From NCBI RefSeq assembly GCF_029338395.1, contig NZ_CP119809.1, forward strand, positions 1,116,001 through 1,180,000: a DNA stretch of 64,000 bases. Direction: 5' to 3'. The stretch comes from Halorussus caseinilyticus (GTDB lineage Archaea > Halobacteriota > Halobacteria > Halobacteriales > Haladaptataceae). Positions 8,709 to 59,220 of the stretch are shown here, piece by piece. Position 1 is the first letter of the stretch; each line of letters begins with the position of its first letter. The notes under the pieces were generated by a model. That model was given only the letters and a program-made list of their open reading frames with translations, ran no database searches and was not told the origin of the DNA. The translations under genes and the position numbers were made by a program.

Positions 8709-9827
8709 CTACGCTTCGTCGCCCTCGGATTCGGTCCCGTCGCCGGGAGCGGACGCCGAGTCGCCGATGATTGCCTCCACGTCGGCGTGGTCGTGAAGCA
8801 GGTCCCGCATCGTCTCGACCGTCTCGGCGTCTCGGGTCCGACCGCTCCGAACCACGTCTTCGGCGCGCTCTATCGTCGTCAGCGTGTCCGACTGGACCAA
8901 CAGGACGGGGACGCCTTTCTCCTCGGCTTTACCGACGACGGCCCCCGGCGGCCGGAACCCGCCGGTCAGAATCAGGCACTTGACGCCCGGCGCTTCCAGC
9001 GCGACTCGCTGGAGGTCCGGCCGGTCGCCGCCGGTGATGAGCGCCGCGTCCTTCGTCCGGCGGAGGTGCCGAAGCGCCGAGTCGCCCGACATCGCGCCGA
9101 CGAGGAACCGCTCCACGAAGGCGTCACCGGGCGCGCTGTTCAACTGTTCGGCCGAGAGTTCCTCGGCGAGGTCCGCGACGGTCACGCCCGCCAACTCCTG
9201 TTCGCGCGGGACGACCCCGAGTACCGGGACGCCGCGGTTTTCGAGGAACGGGACCACCTCGGTCTCCAGTCCGTCGAAGTTGCCCTCTTGGACCGCGTTG
9301 AACAGCACGCCGAGGAGTCGGTCCTCACCGCCTGCCCGCACGTCGTCGGCGGCGGCCAGCAGGTCGTCCACGTCGCCGCTCTGCTCGTACTTCGAGAGGA
9401 GCAGGACCTCGGCGTCGAGGAGTTCGGCCACGTCGGGGTCGGTCAGACCCACGATGCCGCCGGTGGTGAGTTTCCCGCCGCCCTCGACGACCATGAGGTC
9501 CTTTCCTTCCGCGAGACTGTCGAAGCTCTCGCGGACCTGCTCGCGGAGTTCGTCGGGGTCCTCGCGGCCCCGAATCGCCTGCTCGACGAACGTCGGCGAG
9601 TAGACCACCGGTTCGAGGTTGTGCATCTCTGCGTCCAAGTCGAGCAGTTCCCGCGCGAGCATCGGGTCCTCGTCCAGCGTCTTGCCGACGTTGCTCTGGA
9701 GTCGGGTGCCCTTCGGTTTCATGTAGCCGACCGACAGGCCGCGCTCGGCGGCCAACTTTGCCAGCGCGAGCGCGACTGCGGTCTTGCCTGTACTCTCTTC
9801 GGTCGCGGTTACGAGTATCGTTTTCAT
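8709..9827 (-). CDS. Phosphotransacetylase-like protein with P-loop (BioD-like) and DRTGG domains
   Basis: The product is 372 residues. The N-terminal third is a BioD/cobyrinate-synthase-like P-loop domain with the nucleotide-binding loop TEESTGKTAVALALAKLA at about residues 8-25 and VVEGGGK near residue 115. A DRTGG domain (RFLVGAMSGDSALRHL to ALITGGDRPDLQ) occupies about residues 235-345. This arrangement is the N-terminal regulatory part of long phosphotransacetylases, here without the catalytic PTA domain. The gene overlaps the upstream acetyl-CoA synthetase by four bases (ATGA), so it probably senses or controls acetyl-CoA/acetate metabolism. That role is inference. Confidence 0.85.
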   Translation of the reverse strand: MKTILVTATEESTGKTAVALALAKLAAERGLSVGYMKPKGTRLQSNVGKTLDEDPMLARELLDLDAEMHNLEPVVYSPTFVEQAIRGREDPDELREQVRESFDSLAEGKDLMVVEGGGKLTTGGIVGLTDPDVAELLDAEVLLLSKYEQSGDVDDLLAAADDVRAGGEDRLLGVLFNAVQEGNFDGLETEVVPFLENRGVPVLGVVPREQELAGVTVADLAEELSAEQLNSAPGDAFVERFLVGAMSGDSALRHLRRTKDAALITGGDRPDLQRVALEAPGVKCLILTGGFRPPGAVVGKAEEKGVPVLLVQSDTLTTIERAEDVVRSGRTRDAETVETMRDLLHDHADVEAIIGDSASAPGDGTESEGDEA

Positions 9828-11944
9828 TGTCGTTCCAGTTCGTCGGTGTCTACGGTCAGTCGCACGTCCACGGCCTGTACCCCGTCTGGTCCGGCCACGA
9901 GGGGGTTCACGTCGAGTTCCAAGATTGCGGGGAAGTCGGTCACGAGTTGCGAGAGTCGCTGGAGGCTCTCTACGATGGCCTCTCTGTCCGCGGGGTCCCG
10001 GCCGCGCGCCCCTCGCAGGAGCGGCGCGGACCGAATCCCCTCGACCATCTCGGTCGCCTCGCGTGCGCTCACGGGCGCGACCCGCGTCTCGGTGTCCTCC
10101 AGCACTTCCACGAAGATGCCGCCGAGTCCGAACAGCAGAAGGGGACCGAACTGCGGGTCCCGGTTCATCCCGATGATGGTCTCGGTTCCGGAATCGAGGT
10201 CCACCATCTCTTGGACTTGGACCCCGAGGATGTCGGCGTCGGGTTGGTAGTTGCGGGCGCGAGTCACGAGGTCCTCGTAGGCGTCGTACACCTCCTCGTT
10301 CGGGACGCCGACCTTCACGCCGCCGATGTCGGACTTGTGGAGGATGTCGGGCGAGACGATTTTCATCACGACTTCGCCCTCGATGTCTTGGGCCGCGGCG
10401 ACGGCTTCCTCGGGTTTCTCGGCGATGGTACCCTCGGGCGTCGGAATGCCGTAGGCGTCTAACAGACCCATCGCCTCGACCCCGAGTCGGTTGTCGCCGC
10501 GGTCGGTCGCGCGCTCCAGAATCTCCCGGGCGCGCTCGCGGTCCACGTCGAACGTCTCGGGGTCCTCGTACTCGCGCTGGCTAATCGTCCGATAGCGCGA
10601 GAGGGCGTCGAGGCTCCGCACCGCGCGCGCGGGGTCAAAATAATTAGGGATGCCCGCCTCGCGCAGGACCTCCTTGGCCGACTCGGTTCGCTCGCCGCCC
10701 ATCAACACCGCGGCGGTCGGCTTTCCGTGTTCGGCCTGCAACTCGGTGACGACTTCGGCGAGTTGGTCGTAGTCGAGGACCGCCGTGGGAGCGGAGAGGA
10801 CCACAGCACACCCGACGTTCTCGTCGGCCAGCGCGATGTCGAGAGCTTTCTCGAACCGGTCGATGTCGGCGTCCCCGATGGCGTCGATGGGGTTGTAGAT
10901 GTTTGCCTCGTCGGGCATCGCCTCCGAGAGTTCCGAGAGGGTCTCCTCGGAGAACGACGCCAGCGAGAGGTTCGAGTCGCCCACCGCGTCGGTGGTCATC
11001 ACGCCCGGACCGCCCGCGTTGGTCACGATGGCAACGTCGTCGGACTCGGGAATCGGTTGGCCCGACAGAATCTGGGCGAAGTCGAACAGCTCTTGGACGT
11101 TCTCGACGCGCAGGACGCCCGCCTGTTCGAGTCCGGCCTCGTAGGCCTGTTCGCTCCCGGCGAGGGTGCCGGTGTGCGAGGAGACCGCCTGCGCACCGGC
11201 CTCGGTCCGGCCCGACTTGACCATCACGATGGGGGTGTCGTCGGTCACGTCGCGGGCGGCGTCGATGAACTCGCCGCCGTGTTCGACGCCTTCGAGATAC
11301 CCCAAGATTACGTCGGTGTCGGGGTCGTCGCCCCACGCCTCCACGAAGTCGGTCTCGTCGAGGACGGCCTTGTTCCCCAGCGACACCACGTCCTTGAAGC
11401 CGATGCCCTCGTCGTTGGCCCAGTCGAGGACCGCAGTGATGAACGCCCCCGACTGACTCATGAAGGAGATGGACCCGGAAAGTGCGTTCTCGGGGCCGAA
11501 CGTGGCGTTGAGGCCGGTGGGCGTACTCATCACGCCGAGGCTGTTCGGCCCGACCACGTTGAGGTCGTACTCCTCGGCCACCTCGGTCAGTTCGCGCTCC
11601 CGACTCGCGCCCTCGCTCCCGGTCTCGCCGAACCCGGCGGTGATGACCACGACGTTCTCGACGCCGGACTCGCCGCACTGTCGGACCGCCTCGACCGCGA
11701 TTTTCGGCGGCACGACGACTACCGCGAGGTTCAGTTCGCCCGGCACGTCCGCGATGTCGGGGTAGCACTTCAGCCCCAGCACGTCGTCGTAGTTGGGGTT
11801 CACCGGAACCGTCTCGCCCGCGAAGTCCGCCCGCAGGTTCTCCGTAATCGCGCGACCGATTGACCCGTCGCTCTCGGTCGCGCCGATTACGGCGACTCGC
11901 TCTGGCGCGAACAGTCCCGACAACCCTCCTGTGTTCTCGTCCAC
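9824..11944 (-). CDS. Acetate-CoA ligase (ADP-forming), fused alpha-beta subunits
   Basis: The product is 706 residues. The CoA-binding part comes first (RVAVIGATESDGSIGRAI, residues about 14-31), followed by two ligase-CoA domains with the phospho-histidine loop SSHTGTLAGSEQAYEA near residue 255. From about residue 485 comes an ATP-grasp domain (GIPTPEGTIAEKPEEAV, VVMKIVSPDILHKSDIGGV, EMVDLDSGTETIIGMNRDPQFGPLLLFGLGG in parts). This domain order is that of archaeal ADP-forming acyl-CoA synthetases, which convert acetyl-CoA + ADP + Pi to acetate + ATP + CoA, conserving energy. The start codon is GTG. It forms an operon with the DRTGG protein. Confidence 0.93.
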   Translation of the reverse strand: MDENTGGLSGLFAPERVAVIGATESDGSIGRAITENLRADFAGETVPVNPNYDDVLGLKCYPDIADVPGELNLAVVVVPPKIAVEAVRQCGESGVENVVVITAGFGETGSEGASRERELTEVAEEYDLNVVGPNSLGVMSTPTGLNATFGPENALSGSISFMSQSGAFITAVLDWANDEGIGFKDVVSLGNKAVLDETDFVEAWGDDPDTDVILGYLEGVEHGGEFIDAARDVTDDTPIVMVKSGRTEAGAQAVSSHTGTLAGSEQAYEAGLEQAGVLRVENVQELFDFAQILSGQPIPESDDVAIVTNAGGPGVMTTDAVGDSNLSLASFSEETLSELSEAMPDEANIYNPIDAIGDADIDRFEKALDIALADENVGCAVVLSAPTAVLDYDQLAEVVTELQAEHGKPTAAVLMGGERTESAKEVLREAGIPNYFDPARAVRSLDALSRYRTISQREYEDPETFDVDRERAREILERATDRGDNRLGVEAMGLLDAYGIPTPEGTIAEKPEEAVAAAQDIEGEVVMKIVSPDILHKSDIGGVKVGVPNEEVYDAYEDLVTRARNYQPDADILGVQVQEMVDLDSGTETIIGMNRDPQFGPLLLFGLGGIFVEVLEDTETRVAPVSAREATEMVEGIRSAPLLRGARGRDPADREAIVESLQRLSQLVTDFPAILELDVNPLVAGPDGVQAVDVRLTVDTDELERQ

Positions 11945-53852: not shown

Positions 53853-55985
53853 ATGGAACGGGAGTACTACGTCAGAGGTGAGAAGCGCACGGCCGAAGAA
53901 CTCGAAGACGTTCTAGGCGTCCAGTTGGAGTCGCCCCCGGAGGAACCCGAGTCGGCCGCCGCGGACTTCGGCGAACTGGCGACCGACGCGTCTCGGGCCG
54001 AAGACCCGGACGTGCCGATTTCCGACGACGAGCGGGACGCGTTCGCCAGCGCCGGATGGCTCTTCGTCCGGCCTTCCGAGTCGATGTCTCGGTCGGTCGA
54101 GGAAGACGAAGTACCCGAGGGAGCCACGTCGGTCGGGAAAGTGTATCGACGCTCGGACGACCGAGTGGTCGTCGGCACCGACCGACTGACGGTCCAGTTG
54201 CAGTCGGACCTGAGTCAGGACGAGGCCGAGGCCGCATTGGAAGAGGAGGGTCTGACGATAGTTCGTCGCCTCGGGTTCGGGCCGAACCTCTACGAGGTCC
54301 GCGCCCCCGCAGACCGCAACCAGTTCGACGTGTCCGTGGACTTGCAGGAGAACGACGACTTCGTGTTCGCCGAACCGGAACTCATCGAACACGTCCCCCA
54401 GCGATACCAGCCCTCGGACCCCAACTACTCCCAGCAGTGGCAGTGGCACAACGACGGGTCCGGCGGCGGGACTGCTGGCGCTGACGTTGAAGCGGAACCG
54501 GCGTGGGACCACGAGCGCGGGAGCGGCGTCCGAGTCTCGGTCATCGACAACGGCTTCGACTTGAACCACCCCGATTTGAATCCGGCGGTGGGCGGCGGCG
54601 CGGCCTACTTCGAGAACACCTCGTCCGGGGCCGAACTCGTCGTCGGCACGTCGAACTACCCCGACAGCAGTCACGGCACCTTCTGCGCGGGGATGGCGCT
54701 CGCACGGGCCGACAACGGGCAAGGTGGCTGTGGCGGTGCCCACGTCGCCGAGTTCATGCCGGTCGCGGCGCTTCCCGACCAAGTCGGGAGCCAAACCACC
54801 TTGGCGCGGGCCGTCGCGTTCGCGGCCGACCCGACCACGGAGTCGAAGGGGGTCGCGGCCGGTCTGACCAGCGCCGACGGCGCGGACGTAATTTCGTGTA
54901 GCCTCGGCCCGAACGGGGCCAACTGGCAACTCCAGTCGGTCCTCGAAACCGCCATCGAGTTCGCGCAGAACGACGGTCGAAGCGGGCAGGGGACGCCCAT
55001 CTTCTGGGCGGTCAGCAACGGGAACTTCCCGGTGGCCTCCGACGAAGTGTGTTCCCACCCTGACACCATCGCGGTGGGTCGCTCGGACCGCAACGACACC
55101 GAAGACGGGTCGGCGTACGGCCCGGAACTCGACTTCCTCGCACCCGGCGTGAACGTCTACAGCACGACCTCCGGTGGCGGATACGGCACGAGTACCGGGA
55201 CGAGTTTCGCCGCGCCCTGCGCCGCCAGCGTCGGGTCGCTCGTGTTGGGTGCCGACGCCACGCTCTCGGCCGACCAAGTTCGCCAGACCCTCCGGGACAC
55301 TTGCGAGAAGGTGGGCGGCGTCAGCTACGGTAGCGACGGACGACACGAGAAATACGGCCACGGCCGGGTCAACGCCGCCAGAGCCGTCGAGCGCGTCTCG
55401 GGTCCAATCATCGACAAGCATCCCATCATCGACGAGTGGGACAAACATCCCGTCATCGACAAGCACCCGATTACCGACAAACACCCCATCATCGACGAGT
55501 GGAACGGGAAGCTACCGCTGGAGGACGAGGACACCCCGCCCCACATCGACTACTACAAGCGACCGATGCTCGACAAGCAGTTCGAAGACGAGAAGCGCCC
55601 GGGGTCCGACGACTTCCCGCGTGACCCGCGCGACCCGTGGCGGCCGTTTCCGGGAGTCGAACTGGAGCGGTCTCGCTCGGAGTCCGGGCGGCAGGAGAGC
55701 GGTTCCGGACGCGAGTCCCGTCGTCGCCGAGAGGGTGCCAGACAGGGCCGCTCGCGCAGACGACGCCGCGAGAGCGGCGGAAGCCGACCGTTCGCGCTGG
55801 AGACGCCCCATCACTACTCCGGGGCACGACGGCGAGGCGGCGAGTCCCGCGGCGAGTCCGGCCGGGAGTCGGACGACGAGTCCATCGAGCGACTCGACCG
55901 CGAGATTCGCCGTCGGGCGAGCGAACTCGCGGAGATGAACGAGGAGTTCCGGCAGTTGCTCCGCGAGTACCGCGACGACCGATGA
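53853..55985 (+). CDS. Cytoplasmic subtilase (S8) with Lys/Asp-rich repeat tail, candidate graspetide precursor-protease
   Basis: The product is 710 residues, with no signal peptide. Residues 1-105 are an acidic unknown region. About 108-185 is an inhibitor-I9-like propeptide (TVQLQSDLSQDEAEAALEEE). The S8 domain covers about 195-515, with Asp232 (SVIDNGFD), His274 (SSHGTFCAGM), Asn389 (AVSNGNF) and Ser451 (GTSFAAPCA), so it should be active. Residues 519-550 are a degenerate tandem of D-K-H-P-[IV]-[IT]-D units. Then come a Pro/Asp/Lys-rich part, a Ser/Arg/Gly-rich linker, RPFALETPHHYSG (645-657) and a terminal amphipathic helix (675-707). Its stop overlaps the ATP-grasp start (ATGA). The protease role is firm; the precursor role is inference from the partner and the tail. 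Confidence 0.88.
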   Translation: MEREYYVRGEKRTAEELEDVLGVQLESPPEEPESAAADFGELATDASRAEDPDVPISDDERDAFASAGWLFVRPSESMSRSVEEDEVPEGATSVGKVYRRSDDRVVVGTDRLTVQLQSDLSQDEAEAALEEEGLTIVRRLGFGPNLYEVRAPADRNQFDVSVDLQENDDFVFAEPELIEHVPQRYQPSDPNYSQQWQWHNDGSGGGTAGADVEAEPAWDHERGSGVRVSVIDNGFDLNHPDLNPAVGGGAAYFENTSSGAELVVGTSNYPDSSHGTFCAGMALARADNGQGGCGGAHVAEFMPVAALPDQVGSQTTLARAVAFAADPTTESKGVAAGLTSADGADVISCSLGPNGANWQLQSVLETAIEFAQNDGRSGQGTPIFWAVSNGNFPVASDEVCSHPDTIAVGRSDRNDTEDGSAYGPELDFLAPGVNVYSTTSGGGYGTSTGTSFAAPCAASVGSLVLGADATLSADQVRQTLRDTCEKVGGVSYGSDGRHEKYGHGRVNAARAVERVSGPIIDKHPIIDEWDKHPVIDKHPITDKHPIIDEWNGKLPLEDEDTPPHIDYYKRPMLDKQFEDEKRPGSDDFPRDPRDPWRPFPGVELERSRSESGRQESGSGRESRRRREGARQGRSRRRRRESGGSRPFALETPHHYSGARRRGGESRGESGRESDDESIERLDREIRRRASELAEMNEEFRQLLREYRDDR
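55407..55502 (+). repeat. Coding repeat: candidate crosslinked core of the subtilase tail
   Basis: It encodes 32 residues (519-550) with four D-K-H-P units: DKHPIIDEW, DKHPVI, DKHPIT and DKHPIIDEW. The lysines and one threonine could accept, and the Asp/Glu residues could donate, side-chain amide or ester bonds. The units differ at the DNA level by synonymous changes, so the protein pattern looks selected. Confidence 0.6.
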
Positions 55986-56965
55986 TACTCGTCGTCTCCA
56001 CCGAACACGACCGGCACGCGCGGGTCGTGGCTCGACAGGTGGACCGCGAGGGTGGCGACGCCCGACTCCTCGACCTCTCGGAGTTCCCGCGGGACCTCCG
56101 GTTGACGATAGACTACGACGACGGGCGTCCGGACGCTCGGCTTCGGCACGCCGACGCGAGCGAGGACCTGCCGCTGTCGGAGTGCAACGTCGTCTGGTGG
56201 CGGCGGCCACAGCAGTTCGCGCTCCCGGAGTCGGTCGAGCGCCGGGAGGACTACCAGTTCGCGTACAACGAGTGCCAGTCGGCGTTCGACGGTCTCTGGT
56301 CGCTGTTGGACGCCGAGTGGGTCAACCACCCGCTCAGCGACGAGCGTGCGGGTCGCAAGCCGTATCAGCTTCGAGTCGCCGACGAGGTGGGATTCGATAT
56401 TCCCGAGACCTGCATCACGAACGACCCCGAGCGAGCGCGGGCGTTCGTGAACGAGCGCGGGCCGGAACAGACGGTGTACAAGGCGTTCTCGGCGACCGAA
56501 GAGGCGTGGCGCGAGACCCGAATCCTCGAACCCGACGAACTCGAACTGCTCGGGAGCGTCCAGTTCGCGCCGGTCATCTTTCAGGAGTACGTCCCGGCCG
56601 ATGCGGACCTGCGCGTGACCGTCGTCGGCGACGAGACGTTCACCGCGGCAATCGACGCCGGGGACACCTCCTATCCGGTGGACTTCCGGATGGCGATGGA
56701 CGAAGCGCGCTTCGAGCGGTTCGACCTTCCCGAGTCGGCCCGCGAGACGGTGCTGGCGTTCACCGACCGCCTCGGACTCTCCTACGCCGCAATCGACCTC
56801 CGGTACACGTCGGACGGGGAGTTCGTCTTCCTCGAAGTCAATCCGGCCGGGCAGTGGCTATTCGCCGAGCGCCGGGCCGGGCTCCCGATTACGGAGGCGT
56901 TCGCCGACCTCCTGCTGGCGAAGGACGAACCGACCGACCGGGCCGAACGGTCCGCCCGGAGTTAG
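55982..56965 (+). CDS. MvdC/MvdD-family ATP-grasp peptide ligase (graspetide synthetase-like)
   Basis: The product is 327 residues. The N-terminal MvdD pre-ATP-grasp region has ILVVSTEHDRHARVVARQV and the hallmark VWWRRPQQF (71-79). The ATP-grasp part has TVYKAFS (164-170), IFQEYVPADADLRVTVVG (199-216), YPVDFRMAMDEARFERFDLP (231-250, the D-x-R region) and the Mg/ATP loop FLEVNPAGQW (283-292). Family members form omega-ester or omega-amide bonds between Ser/Thr/Lys and Asp/Glu of a substrate peptide. Translational coupling to the repeat-tailed subtilase (ATGA) suggests that protein is its substrate. Confidence 0.88.
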   Translation: MILVVSTEHDRHARVVARQVDREGGDARLLDLSEFPRDLRLTIDYDDGRPDARLRHADASEDLPLSECNVVWWRRPQQFALPESVERREDYQFAYNECQSAFDGLWSLLDAEWVNHPLSDERAGRKPYQLRVADEVGFDIPETCITNDPERARAFVNERGPEQTVYKAFSATEEAWRETRILEPDELELLGSVQFAPVIFQEYVPADADLRVTVVGDETFTAAIDAGDTSYPVDFRMAMDEARFERFDLPESARETVLAFTDRLGLSYAAIDLRYTSDGEFVFLEVNPAGQWLFAERRAGLPITEAFADLLLAKDEPTDRAERSARS

Positions 56966-56990
56966 TTCCGCTTTCGAGACCGGAAATCGT

Positions 56991-57443
56991 ATGCTCCCGG
57001 CGCATCAGTGCCCGGACGTGACTCCTCGTCCGCCGCGCCGTCGAGTTCTCCGCGCCGCTTTCGTCGGGTTCGCGTCGGTCACGCTCGCGGGGTGTACGAC
57101 CGACGACATCGACTCGCCCGAGGACCGGCCCGGACGACCCGACATCCAGTTGAAGAACTGCTACGCCGACTCGAAGGAGGTTCGCGTCGTCGTGACCTAC
57201 CTCGAAACCGGCGAGAGCGTCTACGACGAGACCCACGTGGTGCCCGGCGACTTCTGTAGCGACGCGGGACCCTCCTACAACCTCGAAGCGGTGTGGACCG
57301 AACCGGGCGCGTACCGCGTCCGCGTCGAGGTTCCCGGAATCGGCGCGAGCGAGGCGACGGTGGACCTGTCGGAGCAGGCAGTCGGGGACGACACCGCGAC
57401 TCGCTCGGTGTACGTAGACGACGGAGAGATAGAAATCGGGTAG
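56991..57443 (+). CDS. Small predicted lipoprotein
   Basis: The product is up to 150 residues. A basic start (PRPPRRRVLRAAFVGFASVTLAGC) ends in a lipobox with Cys near residue 35. GTG 57018 (VTPRPPRRR) would give a more normal signal length. The mature part is one beta-sandwich-like domain (NCYADSKEVRVVVTYLETGE, then VPGDFCSDAGPSYNLEAVW) with two further cysteines that could pair. No named family. It lies 25 bases after the ATP-grasp gene on the same strand, so it may belong to that operon. Confidence 0.65.
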   Translation: MLPAHQCPDVTPRPPRRRVLRAAFVGFASVTLAGCTTDDIDSPEDRPGRPDIQLKNCYADSKEVRVVVTYLETGESVYDETHVVPGDFCSDAGPSYNLEAVWTEPGAYRVRVEVPGIGASEATVDLSEQAVGDDTATRSVYVDDGEIEIG

Positions 57444-57479: not shown

Positions 57480-58775
57480 TCAGCGGAACTCGTGGAGGAA
57501 CCCGCGGATGTAGAGTCCCGCCATGTCGATGCAGTTCTCCGTGATGCGCTTCATGTAGTCTTTGGTGTCGGCGTCCCAGTTGGTCCAGTCGGTCCGGCCC
57601 TCGTCCAAGATGTGGTGGTACACGTCGTAGGAGTACTGGCCGCTCTCGGTCGCCATGTCCTGAATGGCCTGCTGGACATCGTTGATGGGGTAGTAACAGT
57701 AGTAGCCGTCGCTACACTGGTCGCTTCCGTACTCGTACTTGAGGTAGTGGCCGCCAGTCCAGTTGTCCGAGACGTACTCCTCGTACTCGCTGTGAAGCCA
57801 GTACATCGGGTCCACGCTCCATTCCATCGAGAGACTCCACACGTCGTAGTAGACGTTCAGGTTGGCCTGTTCCCACCCCATCCCGGTGTGAAGCGGGACG
57901 CTCATGTCCGAGGGGTAGTGGGTGGCCTTCCCGAGGTACTTGTTGCGCTCGCTCCCCGACGAGTAGCGGGCGTTGTTGACGTGCCAGTCGGCGGCGTAGG
58001 GTGCCCCGCCGAGGTTCCCGAAGTCGTCGCTGTGGTCGCCGCTCTCCCACACCTCGAAGGCGTCGGTGTCGAGGTATTGGCCGTAGTGGTGGAGAACCTC
58101 TTCGAGGGCGTTTTCGAGTCCCTCCTCGACGGTCTGCTCGTGGGGGATGCCGTCGGGTACGCCGAGTTCGACGTTCGGATTGTCCGGGTCGTCGGCGTAA
58201 CTCGCCAACTCGTCGGTGTCCGTCGAGTCGATGCCCATCTCGTTGCAGGCGTCGCGGGTCATCGCGCGGTGGAGACCCGTCTTGTGCGCCGCGGACGGGC
58301 CGTCGCGGAGTTCCCCCGCGGTGCCCTTGGCGAACGCTCGGCCCGCCTTCGAGAAGTGTTCGGCGTCCTCCTTCGTCTTCGACGGGTTACTCGTCGCCAG
58401 CGTGTACCACGTCGTGTTTCCGTCCTTCTCCTTGCGGACGGGGAACCGCCGCCGAAGTTCGGCGAGCGACCGGCGTGCCTCGCCTTTCTCCTGCTTCGAG
58501 AGACCGCTGGCGTCGATGTACGACAGCACGGTGTCCTCCGGGAGCGTCAGGAGCGGATAGCGCGCCGAGACCGCTTTGACCGACTTATCGACTCGCCGGA
58601 CCTGCACGTCTGGGTTCGGCGGTTCGTGGTCCTCGGGCGAGACGGCCTTACCGGTGGGTCCGGCCGCCTCCGTTCGGGTCGAGAAGAACCCGAGACCGCC
58701 GACGGTTCCGGCCGCCCCGAGCGTCTTCAGTACGCTTCGTCGTCCTACGTCGCTGGAGTCGGATTTTCGGTTCAA
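57480..58775 (-). CDS. Tat-exported zinc-dependent phospholipase C/P1 nuclease-like protein
   Basis: The product is 431 residues. The start RKSDSSDVGRRSVLKTLGAA is a twin-arginine signal. The centre has the Zn-PLC-like block KATHYPSDMSVPLHTGMG, where H, D and H could bind zinc, with another candidate ligand in ADWHVNNARY and AAHKTGLHRAMT. The C-terminal half is rich in Tyr/Trp (MYWLHSEYEEYVSDNW) and has a Cys pair (DQCSDGYYCYY). It is expected outside the cell, acting on phospholipids or nucleic acids. TTG 58775 is chosen because GGTGAT precedes it and the longer frame reads into non-coding DNA. Confidence 0.72.
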   Translation of the reverse strand: MNRKSDSSDVGRRSVLKTLGAAGTVGGLGFFSTRTEAAGPTGKAVSPEDHEPPNPDVQVRRVDKSVKAVSARYPLLTLPEDTVLSYIDASGLSKQEKGEARRSLAELRRRFPVRKEKDGNTTWYTLATSNPSKTKEDAEHFSKAGRAFAKGTAGELRDGPSAAHKTGLHRAMTRDACNEMGIDSTDTDELASYADDPDNPNVELGVPDGIPHEQTVEEGLENALEEVLHHYGQYLDTDAFEVWESGDHSDDFGNLGGAPYAADWHVNNARYSSGSERNKYLGKATHYPSDMSVPLHTGMGWEQANLNVYYDVWSLSMEWSVDPMYWLHSEYEEYVSDNWTGGHYLKYEYGSDQCSDGYYCYYPINDVQQAIQDMATESGQYSYDVYHHILDEGRTDWTNWDADTKDYMKRITENCIDMAGLYIRGFLHEFR

Positions 58776-58778
58776 GCT

Positions 58779-58784
58779 ATCACC
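58779..58784 (-). promoter_or_regulatory. Shine-Dalgarno element deciding the TTG start
   Basis: On the minus strand AGGTGAT ends three bases before TTG 58775, complementary to the 16S rRNA 3' end (AUCACCU). This supports the unusual start codon. Confidence 0.5.
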
Positions 58785-59220
58785 TATAAAAATTAATAAA
58801 CTAAAACAATTTAAAAGTTGTGTCAGGTTTTCTCGCCGCCTGCGCGAGCGGCCGAACCACCTACACATTTCTAAAGAAATCTAAAATATTTCTTATAGAA
58901 ATATAAAATTGTCTTAGAGACATATTTCTATGTCTTTCACATCCGTCTCCACACTAACTCGCTTGCTCCGCGAATCCGTCCGCGACGGGCCGCCCGAACT
59001 CGGATTTAGTATATCGACATATAGTTTACGAGTCAGCAGTCGCGCACCGAGAAACATCACCGATAGGACAAGAACCGCGAGCAGAGTCCCGAAATTCCGA
59101 GCCGTCGGCCTGCTCTCGCCACCCGACGCCGAGCGCAGACGCCGCTCCGTCTCTCCGGGTGGTATGCACGCACCTGCACATAGAAAGGCATTAATTCGCC
59201 GTGTCTGTACAGACAGGTGA
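58785..59220. other. Intergenic region before purL
   Basis: AT-rich to about 58930 (TTAATAAACTAAAACAATTT and TAAAATATTTCTTATAG), giving promoter DNA for the exported protein. It then becomes GC-rich. A hydrophobic run (FGTLLAVLVLSVMFLGARLL) is readable on the minus strand at about 59020-59090, but without a start codon. GTCTGTACAGAC, a 12-bp palindrome, lies at 59203-59214 just before the purL ATG and could be an operator. Confidence 0.5.

Follow-up and report, generated by a model that had tools for sequence, protein, structure and literature searches.

The gene pair

The window analysed here is a stretch of 64,000 nucleotides from the haloarchaeon Halorussus caseinilyticus (contig NZ_CP119809.1, positions 1,116,001 to 1,180,000), and positions below are its own unless another locus is named. 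On its plus strand two overlapping genes encode a protease with a long C-terminal tail and an ATP-grasp ligase that resembles the synthetases of graspetides. From the sequences, the C-terminal end of the protease seems to serve as the precursor on which this ligase acts.

The protease gene (53853–55985) encodes an S8 subtilase of 710 residues. Its Peptidase_S8 catalytic domain (residues 223–504, positions 54519–55364; Pfam PF00082, 117 bits) retains the whole of the Asp232, His274, Ser451 triad together with the oxyanion Asn391, as expected of peptidase family S8. Residues 1–75 contain neither a hydrophobic stretch nor the RR motif of twin-arginine translocation (Tat), so that no signal peptide was seen. 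The protein thus lacks the Tat or Sec signal peptide by which a secreted, halolysin-type subtilase is recognized. In this it is unlike the S8 paralogues checked in its own genome, most of which carry Tat-type leaders (SRRN/DRRS). An earlier, sequence-only reading of this DNA had described an intact, signal-less S8 gene, a description confirmed by Pfam, by the catalytic residues and by inspection of the N-terminus. We also observed about ten S8 subtilase matches in a tandem array of the same genome (G000:C1:1658997-1671763); those checked are mostly Tat-led.

The ligase gene (55982–56965, plus strand) encodes 327 residues, assigned by Pfam, NCBIfam and predicted fold. Its ATG (55982–55984) and the TGA of the protease (55983–55985) overlap as ATGA. 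The protein carries the landmarks VWWRRP, D208-L-R210 and FLEVNPAGQW, the second of which (residues 208–210, positions 56606–56614) is the DxR element by conservation: D-L-R is invariant within the clade of four ligases described below and R210 is invariant across 22 ligases. Two domains score above their Pfam cut-offs, the MvdD pre-ATP-grasp domain (PF21068, 40 bits; cut-off 27) and RimK (PF08443, 25 bits; cut-off 21). The overlap with an MvdC/MvdD-type ligase noted in the sequence-only reading is therefore borne out by coordinates, landmarks and the Pfam and NCBIfam profiles.

To which subfamily does this ligase belong? The NCBIfam scores were 245 bits for TIGR04187 (cut-off 350), 187 for MvdC (cut-off 425) and 176 for MvdD (cut-off 475). 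Because all three fall below their cut-offs, the ligase, judged by its profile scores, is a member of the superfamily outside all curated subfamilies and forms a separate subfamily. Its top sequence match in the Protein Data Bank is 5ig8 (MdnB; E 2.6e-42). The structural model, with a predicted local distance difference test (pLDDT) score of 86, is nearest to AMdnB and MdnC, at a template modelling (TM) score of about 0.8, as against about 0.7 for RimK. By sequence and predicted fold, then, the ligase groups with the macrocyclases MdnB, MdnC, AMdnB, CdnC and PsnB, ahead of RimK.

The tail of the protease

The tail spans residues ~516–710 and comprises, in that order, a repeat region, the sequence RPFALETPHH and a C-terminal helix. 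The repeats contain eight [K/T]xxxxD units on the plus strand (55416–55610), namely KHPIID, KHPVID, KHPITD, KHPIID, KLPLED, TPPHID, KRPMLD and KRPGSD, which their number and shared register lead us to predict as the core. Eight such units were observed where 1.1 were expected, and the gap of 4 between the two residues gave the maximum among gaps 0–12. The sequence-only reading had spoken of a Lys/Asp/Glu/Thr repeat tail; the repeats do stand above chance, but Glu lies outside the register. Within the core lies a block, T-x2-[HYF]-[IV]-D-x2-K-x3-[LF]-D-K (TPPHIDYYKRPMLDKQ; 55533–55580, plus strand), that is common to other tails. RPFALETPHH (residues 645–654; 55785–55814, plus strand) is predicted to be the ligase-recognition motif and is kept as [RA]PF[AVI]L[EQSA]TPHH in four tails. 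The final helix (55872–55979, plus strand) is supported by the AlphaFold2 (AF2) model and by alignment, its end being similar to the YxxLLxEY of other tails.

In the AF2 model residues 519–673 are of low complexity and predicted to be disordered (pLDDT 26–36), while residues 674–709 form the helix (pLDDT ~54–78). The prediction for the whole protease was poor (pLDDT 48) and was used solely for the disordered tail and the C-terminal helix. Scanned against NCBIfam at an E-value of 10, the tails gave no matches. The arrangement, a tail that is fused to a protease and has its motif downstream of the core, is unlike the usual short, separate precursor with its N-terminal leader.

Four ligases, four proteases

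If the tail and the ligase belong together, do they occur together elsewhere? The ligase or the tail served as the query against 1908 genome slots (overlapping samples), chiefly from Halobacteria and the phylum to which these belong, and against plasmids, phages and viral contigs. Outside the window, close ligases turned up at three loci only: Halorubrum sp. Hd13 (L052; 54% identical to the window ligase), plasmid plas1 of Burkholderia stagnalis YJ-2 (L080; 49%) and G605, an archaeon of the same phylum and another class (L111; 49%). Pairwise identities among the four range from 49 to 54%. In a tree of 18 rows they form one clade with support of 100/100, a value that applies to this reduced set, from which nine long-branch or distant rows had been left out; a 27-row tree that retained the long branches and a misframed G697 row left the four ungrouped.

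The searches returned little besides. The DNA pattern for PFxLxTPHH, applied to 391 Halobacteria genomes, recovered the window and Halorubrum loci and one further match, a short open reading frame (ORF) in G333 (L089) that was dismissed as chance. Patterns that proved too narrow, run over the genome contigs, found nothing beyond the Halorubrum locus. Alignments of the ligase to viral contigs found none, and seven tail-pattern matches in those contigs, ORFs accompanied by neither protease nor ligase, were likewise judged to be chance. The full motif has a single copy in its own genome, whereas the short form RPFxL is undistinctive, with 45 matches there and 39 in reversed controls.

Directly upstream of each of the four clade ligases lies a protease (4/4), but it is not the same protease. 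That of Halorubrum is trypsin-like (S1; Pfam Trypsin_2 and Trypsin), that of B. stagnalis is an M43 zinc protease and that of G605 is again an S8 protease, whose catalytic part is 27% identical to that of the window. S8, S1 and M43 are unrelated protease families. Each protein contains the catalytic motifs expected of its family, and no signal peptide was found in the three proteases checked. The Burkholderia genes also overlap as ATGA; the remaining two pairs are separated by gaps of ~124 and 84 nucleotides.

All four proteases nevertheless end alike: a repeat region leads into [RA]PF[AVI]L[EQSA]TPHH, after which comes a C-terminal helix with a YxxLLxEY-like end. Aligned against shuffled sequences, the tails of the M43 and G605 S8 proteases gave a z-score of 19.9, those of the window S8 and Halorubrum S1 proteases 14.7, those of S1 and M43 11.8, and those of the window S8 and M43 10.1. 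The core block recurs in three tails, with the counterpart KFKFRDEPKQPGLD in G605. The sequence-only reading had suggested that the same pair be sought elsewhere and the tails aligned; with this done, no member of the ligase clade lacks the tail. Its proposal that a single polypeptide is both protease and precursor, with a tail that the ligase would cross-link, gains support, at the level of sequence, from the retention of tail, motif and [K/T]x4D in all four clade members behind unrelated catalytic domains. Its view of the system as archaeal is too narrow, the system being present in Burkholderia as well.

The unit behaves as a transferable module, because it occurs in three archaeal lineages and in Burkholderia, with four catalytic domains.

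The [K/T]x4D register and the predicted recognition motif

Is the register of the window tail kept in the others? The four tails contain 8, 7, 10 and 8 [K/T]-x4-D units, 33 in all, against a shuffled expectation of 7.4 (z 10.8). A gap of 4 is the clear overall peak across the four, and no such peak was found in the catalytic parts. Enrichment five positions before Asp is confined to two of the 20 residues, Lys (z 9.1) and Thr (z 5.6); it is absent for Ser, and Arg is depleted. The acceptor is Asp, to the exclusion of Glu. Apart from acting as donors in graspetide linkages, Lys and Thr share few properties. Lys predominates in the window and G605 tails and Thr in that of Burkholderia; the Halorubrum tail draws on both. 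The tails thus show the regularly spaced donors and acceptors that mark a graspetide precursor.

The motif that follows the repeats also has parallels. The separate precursors of TIGR04187-type ligases carry RPWALRF, RPWVLRF or RPFGL (TgmA), and recognition of the fuscimiditide precursor ThfA depends chiefly on its tetrapeptide RPFG (PMC13003496). The RPFx of the predicted tail motif matches this element and would be its counterpart. The cognate ligase ThfB still functions when the leader is moved, by engineering, to the C-terminal side of the core (PMC13003496).

A model for the tail and its alternatives

We infer that the tail is the substrate of the ligase and that the residues joined are those of the register. 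In our judgement the tail is probably a graspetide precursor in cis, with its motif C-terminal, in which the ligase makes Lys/Thr-to-Asp side-chain rings. The ligase would dock on RPFALETPHH ([RA]PFxLxTPHH), a natural ‘follower’ C-terminal to the core, and would use ATP to activate Asp in every [K/T]-x4-D unit. Joining this Asp to the Lys or Thr that lies five positions ahead of it would then close a small ring, through a Lys–Asp isopeptide here and a Thr–Asp ester in the Burkholderia tail. The outcome would be a protease whose C-terminal part carries some eight such rings, arranged as a ladder.

Several points weigh against this. We know of no proven example of a ring of this size (i to i+5), and of no natural graspetide precedent for a C-terminal leader. 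Just four loci are known, and the ligase does not reach the cut-off of any curated subfamily. Counts within any one tail are inflated by its tandem repeats; what the argument from the register rests on is the agreement of four tails whose repeat sequences differ. In G605 gaps of 2, 3 and 5 are also frequent, so that its register alone is ambiguous, and the whole tails of the window and G605 S8 proteases align weakly (z 1.5), the part from motif to end giving z 5.9.

How else might the tail be explained? The repeats might be a charge or ligand-binding motif, or a disordered linker, with no relation to a ligase whose gene lies alongside for some other reason. Acidic tails are common in haloarchaea, and the low complexity and predicted disorder of residues 519–673 (pLDDT 26–36) would suit such a role. 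It would hardly account for the presence of this tail in Burkholderia and in an archaeon from a different class, for the exchange of Lys with Thr but not with Arg, or for the pairing of all four clade ligases with a tail, and we regard it as highly improbable. Very little weight can likewise be given to a ringless, RimK-like modification, by which the tail would gain amino acids on its side chains or at its C-terminus. The ATP-grasp core does match RimK (25 bits in Pfam; TM ~0.7) and a conserved helix does terminate the tail, but the ligase possesses an MvdD-type N-terminal domain, graspetide synthetases are nearer in both sequence and fold, and the fixed spacing from Lys/Thr to Asp would be left unexplained.

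It is also unlikely that the tail is a docking arm only, binding the ligase through RPFxLxTPHH while some other protein serves as the actual substrate or separate protein chains are cross-linked to each other. ThfB is able to cross-link assembled protein chains (PMC12291112), and Makarova et al. suggest that the precursors of protease-linked ATP-grasps are encoded elsewhere (PMC8939145). Against this, the register of donors and acceptors sits within the tail itself, no separate short precursor gene is evident beside the four ligases, and the window's own genome holds the full motif once.

If the tail is indeed cross-linked in cis, what becomes of it? The attached protease might cut its own modified tail free, or the modified tail might be kept as a protease-resistant arm or regulator; both are more speculative, and each is a possibility that we would sooner doubt than accept. 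Because each of the four ligases is partnered by a protease, and these proteases span three folds, the data suggest that proteolysis itself matters, be it for release of the ladder, for survival of the arm beside an active protease, or for regulation. A single active-site inhibitor serving serine and zinc proteases alike is less likely, yet the ring sequences do differ between the proteases. Tentatively, and with more doubt than conviction, we propose that archaeal and bacterial proteases of at least three folds have in common a mobile module of tail and ligase, by which the C-terminus of the protease is stapled through isopeptide or ester rings. Such stapling would control or mature the enzyme rather than yield a free natural product, and these tails would be the precursors so far missing for graspetide ligases that are linked to proteases.

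Neighbouring genes and more distant ligases

A small lipoprotein gene (56991–57443) begins 25 nucleotides after the ligase, as the sequence-only reading had noted. It is not part of the system: no such gene is present at the Halorubrum, Burkholderia and G605 loci. Beyond it, on the minus strand (57480–58868), lies a gene for a 462-residue protein with no Pfam or NCBIfam match. It has, by eye, a twin-arginine leader of the RRSVLKTLG type and contains ATHYPSDMSVPLHTG, similar to the signature of zinc phospholipase C and S1-P1 nuclease.

Two of the other loci encode small proteins upstream of their proteases, both without Pfam matches. That directly upstream of the G605 S8 protease (L111:5660-5932) has 90 residues and could be a prodomain-like inhibitor or partner; that upstream of the Burkholderia M43 protease (L080:6063-6398) has 111 residues and was found at none of the other loci.

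Ligases outside the clade were set aside. Those below about 35% identity, including G282, G697 and G781, lack the protease fusion, and several have a short ORF upstream. In the haloarchaeal genome G282 this is an acidic ORF of 73 residues that starts MRPFLLQF (L053:9310-9531), followed at 9540-10493 by a ligase of 31% identity; it is likely to be a stand-alone archaeal graspetide precursor. The haloarchaeal ATP-grasp paralogues at L054–L069 (24–31% identical) are a separate group with no protease tail, many being followed by an M50-type membrane protein. At L055 (9401-11310), L056, L057, L063, L066, L067 and L068, for example, the ligase is repeatedly followed immediately by such a protein, with the M50-like HExxH motif. 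By eye these membrane proteins have a PqqD-like N-terminus, and no short precursor was evident there. These look like another undescribed peptidase-linked ATP-grasp pair.

Relation to known systems

Which described systems come closest? Published surveys place ATP-grasp ligases beside peptidases that belong to several unrelated families. Branches 7 and 8 of Makarova et al. (2022) contain ATP-grasps beside such peptidases, with precursors not found (PMC8939145), and Carter et al. (2026) regard the peptidases adjoining group 32 and others as maturation or resistance genes (PMC13097080). In this they resemble our four loci. In both surveys, though, the peptidases are neighbours only, the precursors are not found or are listed apart, and no fusion is described. 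The sequence-only reading knew of no described example of a protease-fused graspetide precursor; we found no description in the literature searched either, although an unnoticed listing in the supplements of the surveys is possible.

Microviridin supplies the nearest solved structures, those of MdnB and MdnC, and a leader motif around P-F. It differs in its two ligases, its short separate precursor and its tricyclic core, and its leader is removed by a separate protease, NosP (PMC13039773). In corallotide (group 15, Corallococcus), Lys–Asp isopeptides in repeated KxxxD have been proven, made by a TIGR04187 ligase (PMC13097080). Like the window system it has multiple Lys...Asp repeats in one large precursor and a ligase matching TIGR04187; unlike it, the spacing is KxxxD rather than [K/T]xxxxD, an oxygenase partner is required and there is no fusion to a protease.

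The fuscimiditide/TgmA-type systems (ThfB, TgmB) share with the window the profile TIGR04187, which is the best of its ligase, and an RPF/RPW precursor motif, and in them a C-terminal leader works when engineered. Their precursors, however, are separate peptides of ~90–100 residues with an N-terminal leader, often with a methyltransferase, whereas in the window the precursor would form the C-terminal part of a protease, its motif follows the core and no methyltransferase lies alongside. The window would thus provide a natural example of an order, core before recognition motif, that has hitherto been engineered (PMC13003496). The question of the missing precursors of protease-linked ligases becomes directly testable with two genes, and side-chain stapling is suggested as a modification of working enzymes.

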